Assembly: GCF_005080685.1 (NCBI RefSeq)
Contig: NZ_CP039371.1
Span: 1,922,001-1,986,000 of the forward strand
Direction: 5' to 3'
Origin: Pseudomonas putida
GTDB lineage: Bacteria; Pseudomonadota; Gammaproteobacteria; Pseudomonadales; Pseudomonadaceae
Length of the DNA stretch: 64,000 bases
Below are positions 17,162-22,810 of this stretch, piece after piece (the first letter of the stretch is position 1; every line of letters starts with the position of its first letter). Made by a program: the position numbers and the translations under genes. The notes beneath the pieces are model-generated. The model did no database searches. It was not told the DNA's origin and was given only the letters and a program-made list of their open reading frames with translations.

Positions 17162-17428
17162 TCAACCCATCATCCCCAACTCAGCATCATCCATCAGCGC
17201 CTTGGCCAAGGCCCCAAGATAATGCGAAGCCCAGATCAAATGCGGCTTGTCTTCCATCAGCCCGGTAACCGTCAATTCCTGGGTATAGCCAAACAACTCC
17301 GAAGCCTGCTCCCGAGCGAACTGGCACGGAATGCCTGGCTCGATGCAGAGCAACGGCTGGGTCTGGTTTTCCCCTTGGTAGAACTTGATTTTGCCGACGG
17401 TGGATTTCTCGCTTTCCTTGGTCATCAT
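17162..17428 (-). CDS. DUF3077 family protein, copy 1
   Basis: 88 aa, soluble. It reads FYQGENQTQPLLCIEPGIPCQFAREQASELFGYTQELTVTGLMEDKPHLIWASHYLGALAKALMDD, the pattern of DUF3077, a small Pseudomonas family without known function. Two adjacent ATGs; Shine-Dalgarno GGGAGAAAG is well placed. It lies 164 bp downstream of the 43-codon ORF on the same strand, separated by a small hairpin (TCGCTGG..CCAGCGA near 17546-17562), and is probably expressed from the same leader. Copy 2 at 19710 differs at only five residues. Confidence 0.8.
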   Translation of the reverse strand: MMTKESEKSTVGKIKFYQGENQTQPLLCIEPGIPCQFAREQASELFGYTQELTVTGLMEDKPHLIWASHYLGALAKALMDDAELGMMG

Positions 17429-17592: not shown

Positions 17593-17724
17593 TTTAGCGC
17601 AGCAGCGCGGTCGCTAGGCGTTGATGGGCAACGTCGGAGCAGGGCGCATCGTGGGCAGGCAGTATCAGCGCGTGTGCAAAGGTAATCGGGAGGTAGGGCG
17701 GGTCGGGGACTATCTTCAGCATCA
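17593..17724 (-). CDS. 43-aa conserved small ORF, copy 1
   Basis: The frame begins MMLKIVPDPPYLPITFAHAL and ends DVAHQRLATALLR, then TAA. Support: an ideal Shine-Dalgarno (CTAGGAGAAC one base before ATGATG), the VPDPP start shared with the paralogue at 20142-20273, and conservation of the last 13 codons while the middle varies. It is first gene of a two-gene unit with DUF3077. The Shine-Dalgarno is one arm of a hairpin in the leader. Function unknown; a leader-type or regulatory peptide is possible. Confidence 0.72.
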
Positions 17725-17998
17725 TCGTTCTCCTAGATAGGCCGACCACCGCCTGCTGTCAAACAGAGGGTGGCAGCTGAGCATGGGTTGACAGACCGGC
17801 TAGGAGAACAATTTCCGGCGCACACAAAGGTGCCCCATGCACAGCCGCCGCAAAGGCGAAGCCATGCTGTTCAAACCTAGACGGCCTGTCAAAGCCGGTC
17901 GCCGTTTCGCGACGACCAATCGAGACTAGGGCGCAATCCAGGTCACCGCAATGGCTTGGAGGCGGCTGGGAGTATGTTTGGGAAATGGACTACAGGTA
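17725..17998 (-). ncRNA. Structured 5' leader, copy 1 (Shine-Dalgarno in hairpin arm)
   Basis: Read on the minus strand, three hairpins can be drawn. One is GGTCGTCG-CGAAA-CGGCGACC (8 bp). The second is GGGCAC...GTGCGCC. The last is a long one whose outer stem is GTTCTCCTAG (17808-17799) with CTAGGAGAAC (17735-17726, the Shine-Dalgarno) and whose inner stem is CTGTCAA with TTGACAG (17793-17787 with 17761-17755). The outer stem is perfect over 10 bp. The same architecture occurs in copy 2 with a different but still complementary outer stem. It should control translation of the small ORF. The upstream promoter was not identified. Confidence 0.65.
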
Positions 17999-17999
17999 A

Positions 18000-18067
18000 G
18001 GGAGAAAATCTGATTCTTGCGGGGTGAGTTGCTGTTTACCACGAACGTTTGCGTCGAGCATTCTTGC
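18000..18067. repeat. 68-bp dispersed repeat, copy 1
   Basis: 62 of 68 bases match 27167-27233. On the minus strand it encodes ARMLDANVRGKQQLTPQES, followed five codons later by a stop after DFLPYL. It is probably the remnant of a gene end spread by rearrangement. Confidence 0.6.
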
Positions 18068-18147
18068 TGGAGCAGGCGAAGACTCCGGCCAAAAGAGGAT
18101 TTATTTTTCCGTTTCCCGCAGTGAAATCAATCTTGGACCTGTCCCCT

Positions 18148-18297
18148 TTACGTTCTCACGGTCAGTGTCTTTTCGTGTTCAATGTAATCACGAAGCACAT
18201 CCAAAGCCAGGTAGATCGCACTCTGGCCATTGCTTTTGGCGAGGTCGGCAAGAGAGTTGGACAGGTCTTCTGGAAGGTTTAGCGATATACCGGTCAT
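18148..18297 (-). CDS. Solo ribbon-helix-helix (CopG/ParD-like) antitoxin
   Basis: 49 aa: MTGISLNLPEDLSNSLADLA, then KSNGQSAIYLALDVLRDYIEHEK. The beta strand TGISLNLP, the first helix DLSNSLADLAK and the second helix preceded by S-A-I-Y are the ribbon-helix-helix antitoxin pattern. Shine-Dalgarno AGAGG is well placed. The motif ATACCGGT occurs at the start of the gene and again, as TATACCGGTA, about 40 bp upstream, which could be an autoregulatory operator pair. No toxin gene is next to it: downstream lies only the 68-bp repeat, upstream (91 bp) an MFS gene. Either the toxin was lost or this acts alone. Confidence 0.7.
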   Translation of the reverse strand: MTGISLNLPEDLSNSLADLAKSNGQSAIYLALDVLRDYIEHEKTLTVRT

Positions 18298-18388
18298 GGC
18301 AACCTCTGCGTTGGATAGTCATGGGTAGGGTATACCGGTAGACCACATCGGGAAGCGGCAGGTCGTCGCGAGATGTAGCTGCGTAGCG

Positions 18389-19588
18389 CTAAAGCTCTCC
18401 AGGCATGCGCCTACCAACCTTGGCCCCGATCCTGATAACCATCCCCCCGATCAACGCAGCCAGTACCGCCAGAATCGCAATCACCCAGGGCGTCCCCATC
18501 GACGTCGCAAGCAAAGCAACCAGCAGCCCCGCAGCAGGTTGCGACAGGTTGTTGAGCAAGGTAATCACGCCCACCGTCTTCCCAAAATCGGCTGTTGGGA
18601 TCACCCGTTGCCGGATCGTGCGCATGTACACATTGAACATCTTGTCGAAACCCACAATCAGCAGAAAACCCACGGCATAGCCGGCAAGATTGGGGCTCAC
18701 GGCGCTAATGAACGCGCCGATCAAGAGCATCGAGTAAGCAACGCCACCGAGCACGCGCAGGGGCAGTACCATCCGTGCCAGGAGGAACAGAATGGCGATG
18801 GTCACGCCGGCTCCCGCCGCTTGCAGAACTGCGTAGTCGTCCTTATCGGCGCTGAATTGCCCTAGCACCATCGCTGCCGACGTAGCCAGGGTGACCCCGA
18901 CGATCAGGTTCACGCCCACCGCCAACGAGATGACCTTTTGCAACTCAGGCTGCTCACGAATATGCCGAAGCGCGATGCGAACTGGCTGCACCCAGATACC
19001 GGGCTTTTGCTCGAACATCGTCCAGCTGATATCGCTCAAACGGTGCCACAGCCACATGCAAAGGTCGGCCAGCAAGAACAACCCTCCCGTCGCCAGCACC
19101 ACCCAATGCCATTGCGAAACGTCCAGCAACAGCGCCGCCACCACTGGCCCGAGTACCAAGCCGGTCTGGTCGGCGATCTGCGAGTAGGACAAGGTCTTGG
19201 TGTAGCTGTAGTGCTGGAAGATATGCGGCATCACCACTTCGCGGGCCATGATGCCTTGTGTAGTGAGTACACCGCACAATGCCGAGAGCACCACCAGCCA
19301 GGCGAGACCGCCGAAAAGCAGGTACAGCCCGGTGGCCAGTACACAGAGCAGTGCTCGGTATAGCTGGCTGATATGCAAGATTTTCATCGGCGAGTACCGG
19401 TCGCAGAGGGCTCCGCATACCGGGAAGGCGAGAAAGCGCGGTAGTGATTCGGCGAAAAAAGCCAAGCCGGACCAAGAGGCGCTATTGGTGGTTTGAAACA
19501 CTACCAGTGGCACGATGAATAACAGGATCTGGTCGGCTAATCGGGACAGGAAAAGCGAGGTAAAGAAGGCGAGGTAGTCTTTGCGCAT
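18389..19588 (-). CDS. MFS transporter (DHA3-like exporter)
   Basis: 399 aa with about 12 membrane helices. The N-terminal motif RLADQILLFIVPLVVFQTTNS and the loop GALCDRYSPMKIL (the MFS G-x-x-x-D-R-x-x-R/K motif between helices 2 and 3) mark a major facilitator of the DHA3 group, which holds drug and siderophore exporters. Substrate unknown. The gene and the antitoxin behind it lie between the two 0.9-kb direct repeats, so recombination could delete both. No regulator is adjacent. Confidence 0.78.
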   Translation of the reverse strand: MRKDYLAFFTSLFLSRLADQILLFIVPLVVFQTTNSASWSGLAFFAESLPRFLAFPVCGALCDRYSPMKILHISQLYRALLCVLATGLYLLFGGLAWLVVLSALCGVLTTQGIMAREVVMPHIFQHYSYTKTLSYSQIADQTGLVLGPVVAALLLDVSQWHWVVLATGGLFLLADLCMWLWHRLSDISWTMFEQKPGIWVQPVRIALRHIREQPELQKVISLAVGVNLIVGVTLATSAAMVLGQFSADKDDYAVLQAAGAGVTIAILFLLARMVLPLRVLGGVAYSMLLIGAFISAVSPNLAGYAVGFLLIVGFDKMFNVYMRTIRQRVIPTADFGKTVGVITLLNNLSQPAAGLLVALLATSMGTPWVIAILAVLAALIGGMVIRIGAKVGRRMPGEL

Positions 19589-19709
19589 TGTCTTTTATAT
19601 TTAGCCTGTCTGCTGTGAGAAGCGGCCCCTTCGCGGCGGAGTACGCGTTACTTGTAGGAGCGGGCTTGCCCGCGAAAGGGCCCGCCCAGTCAATACACCT
19701 CCAATGGAC

Positions 19710-19976
19710 TCAACCCATCATCCCCAACTCCGCATCATCCATCAGCGCCTTGGCCAAGGCCCCCAGATAATGCGAAGCCCAGATCAAATGCGGCTTGTCT
19801 TCCATCAGCCCGGTAACCGTCAATTCCTGGACATAGCCAAACAACTCCGAAGCCTGCTCCCGAGCGAATTGGCACGGAATGCCTGGCTCGATGCAGAACA
19901 GCGGCTGTGTCTGGTTTTCCCCTTGGTAGAACTTGGTTTTGCCGACGGTGGTTTTCTCGCTTTCCTTGGTCATCAT
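19710..19976 (-). CDS. DUF3077 family protein, copy 2
   Basis: 88 aa, nearly identical to the copy at 17162-17428. Differences seen: Ser9 to Thr, Ile14 to Thr, Leu27 to Phe and Thr49 to Val among a few. It has the same start (double ATG), the same Shine-Dalgarno and the same position behind a 43-codon ORF, with the palindrome TCGCTGGCTTGCCAGCGA at 20093-20110 between them. High conservation of the protein compared with its small neighbour suggests it is under selection or was recently copied. Function unknown. Confidence 0.8.
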   Translation of the reverse strand: MMTKESEKTTVGKTKFYQGENQTQPLFCIEPGIPCQFAREQASELFGYVQELTVTGLMEDKPHLIWASHYLGALAKALMDDAELGMMG

Positions 19977-20141
19977 TCTTTCTCCCTGAACGTCCAGGTG
20001 CCTGAGCTGACCCTACGCCCCAGTCTGTCGAGGGCAAGCACACGCCTACAGGCCTGGCCTCGGTTTCTCAATCATGCCGGCCTGATATCGGTCGCTGGCT
20101 TGCCAGCGATGAGGCCAGCTCAGGCGAAACAGACTTTTGAT

Positions 20142-20273
20142 TTAGCGCAGCAGTGCGGTCGCTAGGCGTTGACGGGCAACGTCGGAGCTGGACGCATCGT
20201 GGGAAGCCGGCATCAGTAGGCCGTCGAGGGGATGACGATTGTGAGGTGGATCGGGAACAGTTTTAAGCATCAT
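20142..20273 (-). CDS. 43-aa conserved small ORF, copy 2
   Basis: The frame begins MMLKTVPDPPHNRHPLDGLL and ends DVARQRLATALLR. It is exactly as long as the paralogue at 17593-17724, with conserved ends and a divergent centre, the pattern of a translated gene. The Shine-Dalgarno is weaker here (AGGTAAACC directly before ATGATG) and lies in the 3' arm of the leader hairpin. Function unknown. Confidence 0.7.
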   Translation of the reverse strand: MMLKTVPDPPHNRHPLDGLLMPASHDASSSDVARQRLATALLR

Positions 20274-20560
20274 GGTTTACCTGGTAAGGGCAACCACACG
20301 CCTGCTGTCAAACAGAGGGTGGCAGCTATGAATGGGTTGACAGACCGGTAGGCAAACCAAGAATCCGGCGCACATGAGTGCCCCATACACAGCTGCCATT
20401 GAGGCAAAGCCATGTGGTTTGACTAGACGGCCTGTCAAAGCCGGTCGCCGTTTCGCGACGACCACCCGAGACTAGGGCGCAATCCAGGTCACCGCAATGG
20501 CTTGGAGGCGCCTGGAAGTGTGTTTGGGAAACGCCCTACAAGTAATAGGAACAATCTGAA
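20274..20560 (-). ncRNA. Structured 5' leader, copy 2 (compensatory changes in SD stem)
   Basis: Outer stem GGTTTGCCT (20358-20350) pairs with AGGTAAACC (20282-20274, the Shine-Dalgarno) through nine pairs, one of them G-U. The inner stem CTGTCAA/TTGACAG (20343-20337 with 20311-20305) and the upstream GGTCGTCG hairpin are the same as in copy 1. Both strands of the outer stem differ from copy 1 yet still pair, which supports an RNA fold rather than a DNA site. The rest of the 20561-20656 gap shows only a short possible gene end on the minus strand (VLHWITQLAGFPYDEADQQK). Confidence 0.66.
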
Positions 20561-20656: not shown

Positions 20657-20669
20657 GGGGGGGGGGGGG
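20657..20669. repeat. Run of 13 G
   Basis: Uninterrupted G13 about 145 bp before higB. Such tracts slip easily. No open frame of a recognised protein crosses it, so it is either an expression-tuning tract or a sequencing/assembly weak point. Confidence 0.8.
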
Positions 20670-20812
20670 CGAGGCGCTAGCTGAAGCCAGCGTTCACATT
20701 GCCAGTCGGGCGTGTACAGGTCGATCTGCATGCAACATGCTGTAAATGCTTAACGTCATTTCGCGGCTGTATTACAATTGCCCGGTGTGCGGGAATCCCG
20801 TACGTTTCGCCA

Positions 20813-21109
20813 ATGCGAACAGTGATCGAAACACCGACATTCCAGAAAAACGCTGCCAAACTCTGGACTGATGAGGAACGTGTAGCGTTCATCGATTGGA
20901 TTTCGGCCAACCCGAGCGCTGGGGACGTCATCCAAGGCGCGGATGGTGCGCGAAAGGTGCGCTGGCGTCGTGCTGGTTCGGGTAAATCAGGCGGAGTAAG
21001 GGTGATTTATTTCAATCTCACCGAAGATGAAGTCGTGTTACTGATCATGGTCTATGCAAAGGCAGAACGATCCAATGTAGACCCAGCTGAAATCAGCAAG
21101 GTGGTGTGA
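20813..21109 (+). CDS. higB: HigB/RelE-family toxin
   Basis: 98 aa. The pattern MRTVIETPTFQKNAAKLWTD, GADGARKVRWRRAGSGKSGGVRVIYF and VLLIMVYAKAER is that of HigB2/RelE-type mRNA interferases. The stretch KVRWRR...GKSGGVRVIY carries the usual basic catalytic residues. The antitoxin gene follows after one base, so the order is toxin first, as is typical for hig. Upstream, CGGGAATCCCG (about 20789-20799) is a palindrome suited to autoregulation. The start at 20813 gives the usual family N-terminus. Confidence 0.82.
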   Translation: MRTVIETPTFQKNAAKLWTDEERVAFIDWISANPSAGDVIQGADGARKVRWRRAGSGKSGGVRVIYFNLTEDEVVLLIMVYAKAERSNVDPAEISKVV

Positions 21110-21110
21110 T

Positions 21111-21428
21111 ATGCGTGACATCGATATCGAAGCCGTCGCCAAGGCCATTGAGGCAGATGCAGGCGAGGCGTTGCCTGATCTACGCCAGGCTCTAAAAGAA
21201 GCGAAAGCGGGTGCTGGTCGGGTCAGTACGCCGGAGCAGATACTGGTACGGCAGGCGCGTGAGCGTTCCGGGTTGACTCAGGCTTCCTTTGCCAAGCGTA
21301 TCGACACGCCCGTCGCAACCCTTAGAGATTGGGAACAGGGGCGTTTCGTGCCGCCTGGTGGTGTACTTTGCCTGTTGCGTCTGATCGTCAAGCATCCTGA
21401 GCTTTCGCAGGAACTGGCTACTTTCTGA
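21111..21428 (+). CDS. higA: HigA-family antitoxin with HTH
   Basis: 105 aa. An N-terminal toxin-binding part (DIEAVAKAIEADAGEALPDL) is followed by an Xre-type helix-turn-helix (ILVRQARERSGLTQASFAKRIDTPVATLRDWEQGRFVP). It starts one base after the higB stop. It would neutralise HigB and repress the operon. The order and the DWEQG motif are those of HigBA modules common on islands. Confidence 0.84.
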   Translation: MRDIDIEAVAKAIEADAGEALPDLRQALKEAKAGAGRVSTPEQILVRQARERSGLTQASFAKRIDTPVATLRDWEQGRFVPPGGVLCLLRLIVKHPELSQELATF

Positions 21429-21609
21429 TTCACCTGCAGCGATGCTGATGCTTATAGCCAGCCTGCTGCTTCGTTGCAGTTGATGACACATCGGAAAGAC
21501 TCGTGTGCGTTATCTGGAATTCGTGCGCCAGCGATACCATCAATTGAAATAAATCCCAAAAATAGATCTGTCCCGAATGGCAGTCCCGAATGGCACTGCC
21601 AATCAAGAA

Positions 21610-21860
21610 GGTGGCAGCTGTGCATGGGTTGACAGACCGGAAGGAAAAAAAAGCAAAAAGAACCCGGCGCACACGAGGTGCCCCACGCACAGCCGCCATA
21701 GCAACGCATTACTTTTTTGACCTGAACAGCCTGTCAAAGCTGATCGCCGCTTTCACGACGACCAACCGAGACTAGGGCGCAATCCAGGTCACCGCAATGG
21801 CTTGGAGGCGGCTAGGAGTGTGTTTGGGAAACGCCCTACAAGTAATAGGAACAATCTGAA
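21610..21860 (-). ncRNA. Orphan copy of the structured leader, 3' arm lost
   Basis: Homologous to the leaders at 17725-17998 and 20274-20560, including TTGACAG, the GGTCGTCG hairpin (kept by G-U pairs) and the 40-bp block around GACTAGGGCGCAATCCAGG. It stops at AGGTGGCAG. The distal arm, Shine-Dalgarno, small ORF and DUF3077 gene are missing; unrelated sequence with a 14-bp tandem repeat (TGCCATTCGGGACT type) follows to higA. The rest of the 21429-22102 gap shows no gene. Confidence 0.6.
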
Positions 21861-22633: not shown

Positions 22634-22723
22634 TTCGAAGGGTTCCAATGGTTAACTTCCGCTTCTAGAAACAACGAGGTGCCTGTTCAGCCACATCAGG
22701 TTGAACAGGCCCATCGGTTAGCT

Positions 22724-22810
22724 GCCTGGCTCGATGCAGAACAGCGGCTGTGTCGGGTTCTTCCCTTGGTAGAACTTGATTTTGCCGAAGGAGGTTTTCT
22801 CGCCAGCCAC
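22724..22810 (-). pseudogene. DUF3077 gene fragment
   Basis: An 80-bp stretch (GCCTGGCTCGATGCAGAACA ... GGTTTTCTCGCC) matches the 5' part of the DUF3077 genes on the minus strand at roughly 85%, but both ends are missing. A 9-bp inverted repeat (GCCTGTTCA/TGAACAGGC, 22681-22710) stands next to it and may end transcription of the glyoxalase-like gene. It is a third trace of the repeated unit. Confidence 0.7.

Follow-up and report, generated by a model that had tools for sequence, protein, structure and literature searches.

C4 antisense RNA modules of the phage P1 type in multiple copies on a Pseudomonas putida chromosome

Leader RNAs in a stretch of 64,000 nucleotides (nt) of Pseudomonas putida DNA (contig NZ_CP039371.1, positions 1,922,001–1,986,000; hereafter the window) were analysed by computational methods. 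The two leaders between positions 17,725 and 20,560 of the window, and a third copy at 21.6–21.8 kb, are C4 antisense RNAs (Rfam RF01695) on the minus strand, each located behind a c4-a1b1 element (RF03163). We consider it very probable (about 0.85) that the leaders represent P1-type C4 antisense-RNA modules, that about 30 of these are present on this chromosome, and that they contain self-matching pairs of recognition loops and target sites that diverged together. The original prediction had described two leaders in front of 43-codon open reading frames (ORFs) as hairpins that sequester the Shine-Dalgarno (SD) sequence, and had not recognised a named RNA family. The family does have a name, and the third copy shows that the element extends beyond the two leaders first seen.

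The sites are named as in P1, with a for the heptamer and b for the SD-proximal segment. The "Shine-Dalgarno stem" of the original prediction is the C4 b-loop together with site b2, and its "inner stem" is the C4 a-loop together with site a2. The words that had been quoted are all present on the minus strand. The 10-bp arms of copy 1 (GTTCTCCTAG and CTAGGAGAAC) were found to extend to 13 pairs with one G-T, the arms of copy 2 (GGTTTGCCT and AGGTAAACC) form 9 pairs with one G-U, and CTGTCAA/TTGACAG occurs in both copies (17794–17788/17762–17756 and 20343–20337/20311–20305). The GGTCGTCG hairpin falls within the c4-a1b1 element of Rfam. The cut-off was 45 bits for RF01695 and the gathering threshold 46.7 bits for RF03163; in the Rfam scan, the RF03163 match of one window copy was over its threshold and two were slightly under. 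The elements of the three copies are as follows.

20469–20497, minus strand: copy 2, predicted promoter, read from the sequence (−35 TTGCGG at 20497–20492, 17-nt spacer, −10 TAGTCT at 20474–20469)
20424–20475, minus strand: copy 2, c4-a1b1 element (RF03163, 47.7 bits; a1 TTGACAG at 20438–20432)
20421–20415, minus strand: copy 2, b1 CAAACCA, directly 3' of the Rfam c4-a1b1 match
20315–20403, minus strand: copy 2, C4 antisense RNA (RF01695, 67.2 bits; b-loop GGTTTGCCT at 20358–20350, a-loop CTGTCAA at 20343–20337)
20305–20311, minus strand: copy 2, site a2 TTGACAG, exact 7-nt complement of the C4 a-loop
20274–20282, minus strand: copy 2, site b2 including the SD sequence (AGGTAAACC), immediately before the start codon; pairs with the C4 b-loop at 9 positions
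20142–20273, minus strand: copy 2, first ORF (ORF1), 43 codons, N-terminus MMLKTVPDPP
19710–19976, minus strand: copy 2, DUF3077 gene (PF11275, 55.2 bits)
17923–17951, minus strand: copy 1, predicted promoter, read from the sequence (−35 at 17951–17946, spacer of 17, −10 at 17928–17923)
17878–17929, minus strand: copy 1, c4-a1b1 element (RF03163, 46.1 bits, slightly below gathering; a1 at 17892–17886)
about 17880–17867, minus strand: copy 1, b1, an interrupted match
17766–17855, minus strand: copy 1, C4 antisense RNA (RF01695, 62.4 bits; b-loop GTTCTCCTAG at 17809–17800, a-loop CTGTCAA at 17794–17788)
17756–17762, minus strand: copy 1, site a2 TTGACAG, exact complement of the a-loop
17727–17736, minus strand: copy 1, site b2 including the SD sequence (CTAGGAGAAC); 10 exact pairs, 13 with one G-T
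17594–17725, minus strand: copy 1, ORF1, 43 codons, N-terminus MMLKIVPDPP
17162–17428, minus strand: copy 1, DUF3077 gene (PF11275, 51.8 bits)
21769–21797, minus strand: copy 3, predicted promoter with the same boxes as copies 1 and 2, read from the sequence
21723–21775, minus strand: copy 3, c4-a1b1 element (RF03163, 45.4 bits, slightly below gathering; a1 at 21737–21731)
21607–21703, minus strand: copy 3, C4 antisense RNA (RF01695, 70.3 bits)

The layout of the window copies matches that of the annotated phage P1 record, in which the order is promoter-a1-b1-C4-a2-b2-icd-ant. Sites a1 and a2 of P1 are both TTGACAG, identical to those of the window copies; P1 b2 matches the complement of a C4 loop word exactly, and P1 b1 does so at 7 of 8 letters. 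The P1 C4 (annotated length 77 nt) was recovered at 45.7 bits by a covariance model for which 29 of the 30 C4 loci in the P. putida genome were used and P1 was not, and in the same 29 loci two-sided changes were observed at 15 of the 23 consensus pairs of the C4 stem. Loops complementary to a2 and b2 at the ribosome-binding site of the next gene are present in copies 1 and 2 and not in copy 3, for which no recognisable downstream target was found: the a2 position reads TTGATTGGCAG, and neither a matching b2 nor an ORF with the VPDPP motif was detected. Like the c4-icd-ant operons of P1 and P7, the modules have b2 just 5' of a small first ORF, and their loop specificity differs from module to module as it does in P1/P7 heteroimmunity, for which the available text of the source describes specificity differences of C4 and a block of first-ORF translation by C4 (PMC12197685). 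Unlike the phage systems, the Pseudomonas modules are chromosomal, occur at 30 loci in one genome with no b-loop repeated among them, and have DUF3077 or DUF6124 genes as C4 targets instead of icd-ant. No antirepressor gene was found downstream in the window; P1 ant1 matches PF03374, and the window genes gave DUF3077 only.

All 30 C4 matches in the P. putida genome were above the cut-off. DUF3077 was matched 27 times, 25 of which have a C4 at most 900 nt upstream, and a DUF3077 or DUF6124 domain is found at most 900 nt downstream of 25 of the 30 C4 copies. Across the genus sample, in which scoring stopped at 27 matches per genome, C4 was present in 138 of 149 genomes, with at least 10 copies in 91 and at least 20 in 55; in the class sample it was present in 7 of 185, and the six genomes other than our own (included in both samples) had one to three copies. 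Under a higher cap, Pseudomonas genomes gave up to 42, 41, 38 and 36 matches, and of the 42 and 36 matches (genomes G005 and G010) 39 and 35 exceed the cut-off. In G010 and G005, respectively, 27 of 29 and 26 of 32 DUF6124 matches have a C4 no more than 300 nt upstream. As an independent set, named assemblies with 80 DUF3077 loci were used, 74 of which have C4 upstream; two of the other six (L156, L168) are cut by contig ends. The nearly palindromic sequence of C4 makes an automatic strand guess unreliable, and strands were therefore taken from the search output. The locus set leaves out L041 (short, at a contig end) and L043 (strand not listed), and the 74-locus test leaves out one of the two C4 matches in each of L118, L129 and L182, one cut-off match (L141) and three weak opposite-strand matches. 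An assembly titled Pantoea sp. Ap-967 carries several modules of the Pseudomonas type (L118, L125, L151, L182), and its title may be a misnomer.

To assess loop specificity, every C4 b-loop was compared with all target regions in its genome and the longest paired stretch was taken as the score, for 30 loci in each of three genomes (the P. putida genome and the two others). The mean score of a b-loop with its own b2 was 9.30, 9.30 and 8.37, versus 5.68, 5.64 and 5.65 with the others, an advantage that was reached in none of 20,000 permutations in any of the genomes; the proposal of a selected RNA element with compensatory changes is supported on average across the 30 loci of the P. putida genome (9.3 versus 5.7). 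The named assemblies (74 loci) gave 8.59 versus 5.83, again with 0 of 20,000 permutations. By b alone, the own target was best or tied at 24, 22 and 17 of 30 loci, rising to 27, 24 and 24 when a and b were scored together; copies 1 and 2 (L024 and L021) both rank their own target first of 30, and copy 3 (L017) ranks its own downstream region 28th. The b1 region (−75 to 0) also matched its own loop better than others (7.17, 7.33 and 7.30 versus 5.77, 5.69 and 5.79; 0 of 20,000 permutations in each of the three genomes), and a test with a shorter window in two genomes gave no signal (17566 and 15142 of 20,000). Six control comparisons for b1 yielded 3273, 8258, 12271, 528, 7144 and 17084 of 20,000.

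For the a segments, 109 of 111 loci carry the same 6-mer of the a-loop complement in a1 as well as in a2, and 11, 15 and 21 distinct heptamers are used in the three genomes. In the P. putida genome a1 was found by exact word at 30 of 30 loci (an a1 score taken over a wrongly set stretch was reached in 3267 of 20,000 permutations) and the a2 complement is kept at 29 of 30; in the named assemblies the heptamer occurs in a2 of 70 and in a1 of 73 of the 74 loci. Of 81 scored b duplexes, 63 overlap positions −10 to −7 relative to the start codon. These 81 come from 89 loci, which do not include L100 because it has no assigned ORF1; the other 8 had duplex scores under 7. The first ORFs were assigned by a script, with 77 of 89 starting 40–56 nt after C4, and some of these assignments are wrong.

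Comparison of copies 1 and 2 showed high identity in the DUF3077 gene (0.96), the intergenic part (0.97) and the promoter region (0.95), as well as in the a segments (a1 0.95, a-loop with 3' stem 0.91, a2 0.89). Identity was lower in the b segments, with 0.77 for b1, 0.62 for the C4 b-loop and 0.57 for b2 with the SD sequence. The claim that both arms changed together while the inner stem, the hairpin and the loops stayed the same is borne out for the b segments, which changed in step, and for the near-constant a segments; ORF1 and the 5' stem of C4 diverged too. In four further locus pairs (L006/L012, L014/L019, L010/L027 and L063/L074) the b-loops are 33–57% identical and the first 60 codons 96–99%. 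Among 1,305 within-genome locus pairs of the three genomes, the b-loop is common to 3 and both a and b to 2; in both of the latter, one partner (L078, L107) is without an ORF1 start at the usual distance. No two of the 30 loci in the P. putida genome have the same b-loop. In the named assemblies, none of the 64 pairs from one genome had a b-loop in common, compared with 7 of 53 syntenic pairs from different genomes and 19 of the 2,584 remaining pairs; at a DUF3077 identity of at least 94%, the figures were 0 of 4 within a genome and 4 of 4 for syntenic pairs. Since the loops and sites diverged together, most modules match themselves best.

The arrangement suggests how a module could work. Transcription would start at the predicted promoter directly upstream of a1/b1, although the proposed promoters were not among the matches of a simple consensus promoter scan. 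The transcript would comprise a1/b1, C4 with an a-loop of 7 nt and a b-loop of about 8–13 nt (usually with an anti-SD) for recognition, a2 and b2. Site b2 usually covers the SD sequence of the small first ORF, which is followed by the DUF3077 gene; in the two other Pseudomonas genomes it is mostly a DUF6124 gene that directly follows the leader. In P1, C4 is released by RNase P. By analogy with P1, free C4 would pair with a2 and b2 of its own module and block initiation of ORF1 translation, and the downstream gene would be silenced along with ORF1 by coupling or polarity. The b sites turn over even between paralogs with nearly unchanged coding sequence. A YCCTAC/GTAGGR word, possibly a shared operator, was seen 5' of the promoter at 22, 9 and 16 of 30 loci (47 of 90), and in 5 and 9 of 90 control windows with repetitive extragenic palindrome (REP)-like contexts masked.

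Partition-function folds of the 90 loci, in which pseudoknots were not modelled, rarely predict pairing of the loops with their own sites, and antisense action therefore fits best. The a-loop pairs with its own a2 at a probability above 0.5 in 1 of 90 folds when a1b1 is present and in 0 of 90 when it is removed; the b-loop pairs with its own b2 at a probability above 0.3 in 2 of 90. For copies 1 and 2 both cis pairing probabilities are 0.00, and in the full-leader fold of copy 2 the SD region sits in a different local hairpin. Full-leader folds have the C4 a-loop paired with the 5' part (the a1 side) at a probability above 0.5 at 12, 13 and 12 of 30 loci, which suggests that C4 may be kept inactive by a1/b1 as long as the transcript is unprocessed.

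Several observations weigh against the reading of the leaders as self-matching C4 modules. Another target beats the own target at 6, 8 and 13 of 30 loci by b alone and at 3, 6 and 6 of 30 by a and b together, so that insulation is imperfect on paper; target complementarity is weak or missing in some loci (L017, L030), and one of the six b1 controls was mildly enriched (528 of 20,000). No DUF3077 or DUF6124 was found within 900 nt 3' of 5 of the 30 C4 copies in the P. putida genome, and no DUF6124 within 900 nt 3' of 9 of 36 and 16 of 42 in the two other genomes, where DUF3077 was not searched; these two are represented by 30 of 36 (G010) and 30 of 42 (G005) C4 matches. ORF1 (0.74) and the C4 5' stem (0.74) also diverged between the window copies, which recombination alone could explain. 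Finally, the b-loops differ in 46 of the 53 syntenic pairs, so turnover is fast everywhere and not just between paralogs, and the excess of identical b-loops between genomes is carried by few pairs. As most syntenic pairs differ too, the divergence supports selection for private addresses and does not prove it.

The proteins encoded by the modules were searched with several methods. ORF1 of copy 2 has no Pfam match; VPDPP is found near the start of 23 of the 30 assigned first ORFs in the P. putida genome, and TPNPP near the start of 19 and 13 of 30 in the two others. The DUF3077 protein of copy 2 was modelled as a helical hairpin with a mean predicted local distance difference test (pLDDT) score of 88.8, and a structure search with this model gave no match at E ≤ 0.001, which is uninformative; the DUF6124 model had a mean pLDDT of 76.6. 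The profiles of DUF3077 and DUF6124 show a weak match to each other (probability 75, E 2.4e-5), and for one DUF3077 protein a match to DUF6124, below the cut-off, was seen as well. NCBIfam gave no match for eight module proteins, nor did PADLOC for the four tested. For P. putida KT2440, the available text of a furfural study reports a mutation in one DUF3077 pseudogene (PMC9630843).

Between copies 2 and 3 on the plus strand, a RelE-like toxin gene (20699–21109; 26 bits versus a cut-off of 27) is followed by a helix-turn-helix/MqsA-like antitoxin gene (21111–21428), together a toxin-antitoxin-like pair. A run of 13 G residues (20657–20669) separates copy 2 from the toxin-like gene and is a possible slippage site. 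On the minus strand 5' of copy 3, a 30-codon DUF3077-like remnant (22718–22810; FGKIKFYQGKNPTQPLFCIEPG) was noted by eye, possibly from a decayed fourth module.

Among the alternatives, C4 might act mainly by transcription attenuation, such that pairing with a1/b1 decides on a terminator between b1 and C4. A run of at least five T residues within 65 nt 5' of C4 was found in 30 of 111 loci versus 11 of 111 in a control stretch, P1 carries a similar TATTTTTGTGTCCG stretch between b1 and C4, and the predicted pairing of the a-loop with the a1 side (12, 13 and 12 of 30) agrees with attenuation. In several loci (L001, L002, L036) the run was seen by eye behind a GGCGC/GCGCC hairpin. The run is present, however, in 2 of the 30 loci of the P. 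putida genome (L001 and L002, neither of them a window copy), and an a2 complement is retained at 29 of 30 loci, with the own b2 ranking first at 24 of 30. Attenuation as the main mode of action is therefore unlikely here, and it may add control in some modules. By eye, L001, L002, L031, L036, L040, L045 and others have a terminator-like GC-rich hairpin with a T-run between b1 and C4, and a second hairpin in the same loci could compete with it.

The modules could also be addiction or defence loci resembling type I toxin-antitoxin systems, with C4 as the RNA antitoxin of a small toxic protein. Multiple copies, small ORFs, mostly self-matching antisense pairs and decayed copies would agree with this, as would the toxin-antitoxin-like gene pair between copies 2 and 3, and an antisense architecture was indeed found. 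The Ibs/Sib and Ldr/Rdl systems of Escherichia coli are likewise multi-copy antisense-target pairs in one genome, and Sib of the five-copy Ibs/Sib system recognises its target through two domains, one of which is over the initiation region; unlike C4, these antisense RNAs are encoded opposite small toxin genes, and they occur in five and four copies instead of tens, according to the available text of the source (PMC4147584). In the modules C4 and its target are on one strand, DUF3077 comes out as a helical hairpin in a model made without membrane prediction, and the four module proteins tested gave no PADLOC match. We consider a toxin-antitoxin function improbable.

It is much less probable still that the modules are relics without any current function, left over from the immunity regions of P1-like prophages and either transcribed or silent. 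Prophage-like C4 loci do exist in the genus: C4 lies directly before a Bro-N domain gene in L035 (a phage antirepressor-type locus; L034 is alike by eye), and beside a Mu-type transposase domain in L031; in L036 it is followed by a small ORF and a DUF3077 gene that adjoins a weakly primase-like gene, under the cut-off (L045 is alike by eye). In four of these loci (L034–L036, L045) C4 precedes a short ORF as in the window, and L036 and L045 include the DUF3077 gene; unlike the window, L036 has the primase-like gene, and in 2 of the 4 (L036, L045) a T-run separates b1 from C4. DUF3077 matches phrog_36471, and a tblastn search of 50,697 phage records with the window DUF3077 gave no match at E ≤ 1e-3, with one plasmid record matched. 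Copy 3 without a recognisable target and the DUF3077-like remnant at 22.7 kb, seen by eye, are what decay would leave. Unselected relics would, however, lose complementarity. What was seen is the opposite of arms that drift apart: the a1/b1/a2/b2 complementarity is kept while the sequences change, both in the three genomes and in the 74 named-assembly loci, and the linkage with the DUF genes is close. The link to phages is drawn from the prophage-like loci, which would fit an origin in which a phage immunity operon was captured and then spread, a direction that we infer.

That the leader acts in cis, as a long hairpin that hides the SD sequence and serves as a thermosensor or a ligand- or protein-responsive switch, is the least credible alternative: both arms would be carried by the same transcript and covary so as to stay complementary, but the leaders match the C4 family and the P1 layout, the a and b segments have further covarying partners (a1/b1) that a simple hairpin does not need, and the folds, which do not model pseudoknotted pairing, predict cis pairing in 1 of 90 (a) and 2 of 90 (b) loci, without a stable SD-occluding structure. 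The arms are an antisense RNA and its target. The cis thermosensor or riboswitch was rejected on these grounds, the computational analysis having found nothing in its favour; among the roles suggested in the original prediction, that of a small-RNA target is the best.

The RNA family is known. C4 antisense RNA and c4-a1b1 are listed in Proteobacteria and phages by Weinberg et al. (2010, PMC2864571); going by the available text of each source, RF01695 was used as a blind case in a structure-prediction paper, one C4 was reported in a transcript with isrK in Burkholderia cenocepacia, and two were found in one genome of Xylella. The multi-copy expansion with co-diverging recognition sites in Pseudomonas is apparently undescribed, as no description of multi-copy C4-DUF3077/DUF6124 modules was found in the accessible part of the open-licence literature, supplements not covered.

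Our reading of the C4 modules is that a phage immunity switch has multiplied into many pairs that are largely orthogonal. More tentatively, and at somewhat less than even odds, they constitute a private antisense code, in which a captured phage immunity RNA was multiplied together with a DUF3077/DUF6124-type gene and no two working modules in a genome share an address. The b sites were rewritten while the protein genes stayed 96–99% identical, so that under such a code it would be the insulation, and not the protein, that diversifies; this would follow if each module has to be repressed and released on its own, as in an immunity- or addiction-like logic. If true, one bacterium would hold tens of natural antisense-target pairs on one RNA scaffold, mostly without cross-reaction. 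These would provide a data set on the insulation of RNA pairs after duplication and a parts list for orthogonal riboregulators, and the loss of a C4 loop would offer a first handle on the function of DUF3077 and DUF6124. A phage lysogeny switch would then have turned into a large chromosomal regulatory family in Pseudomonas.

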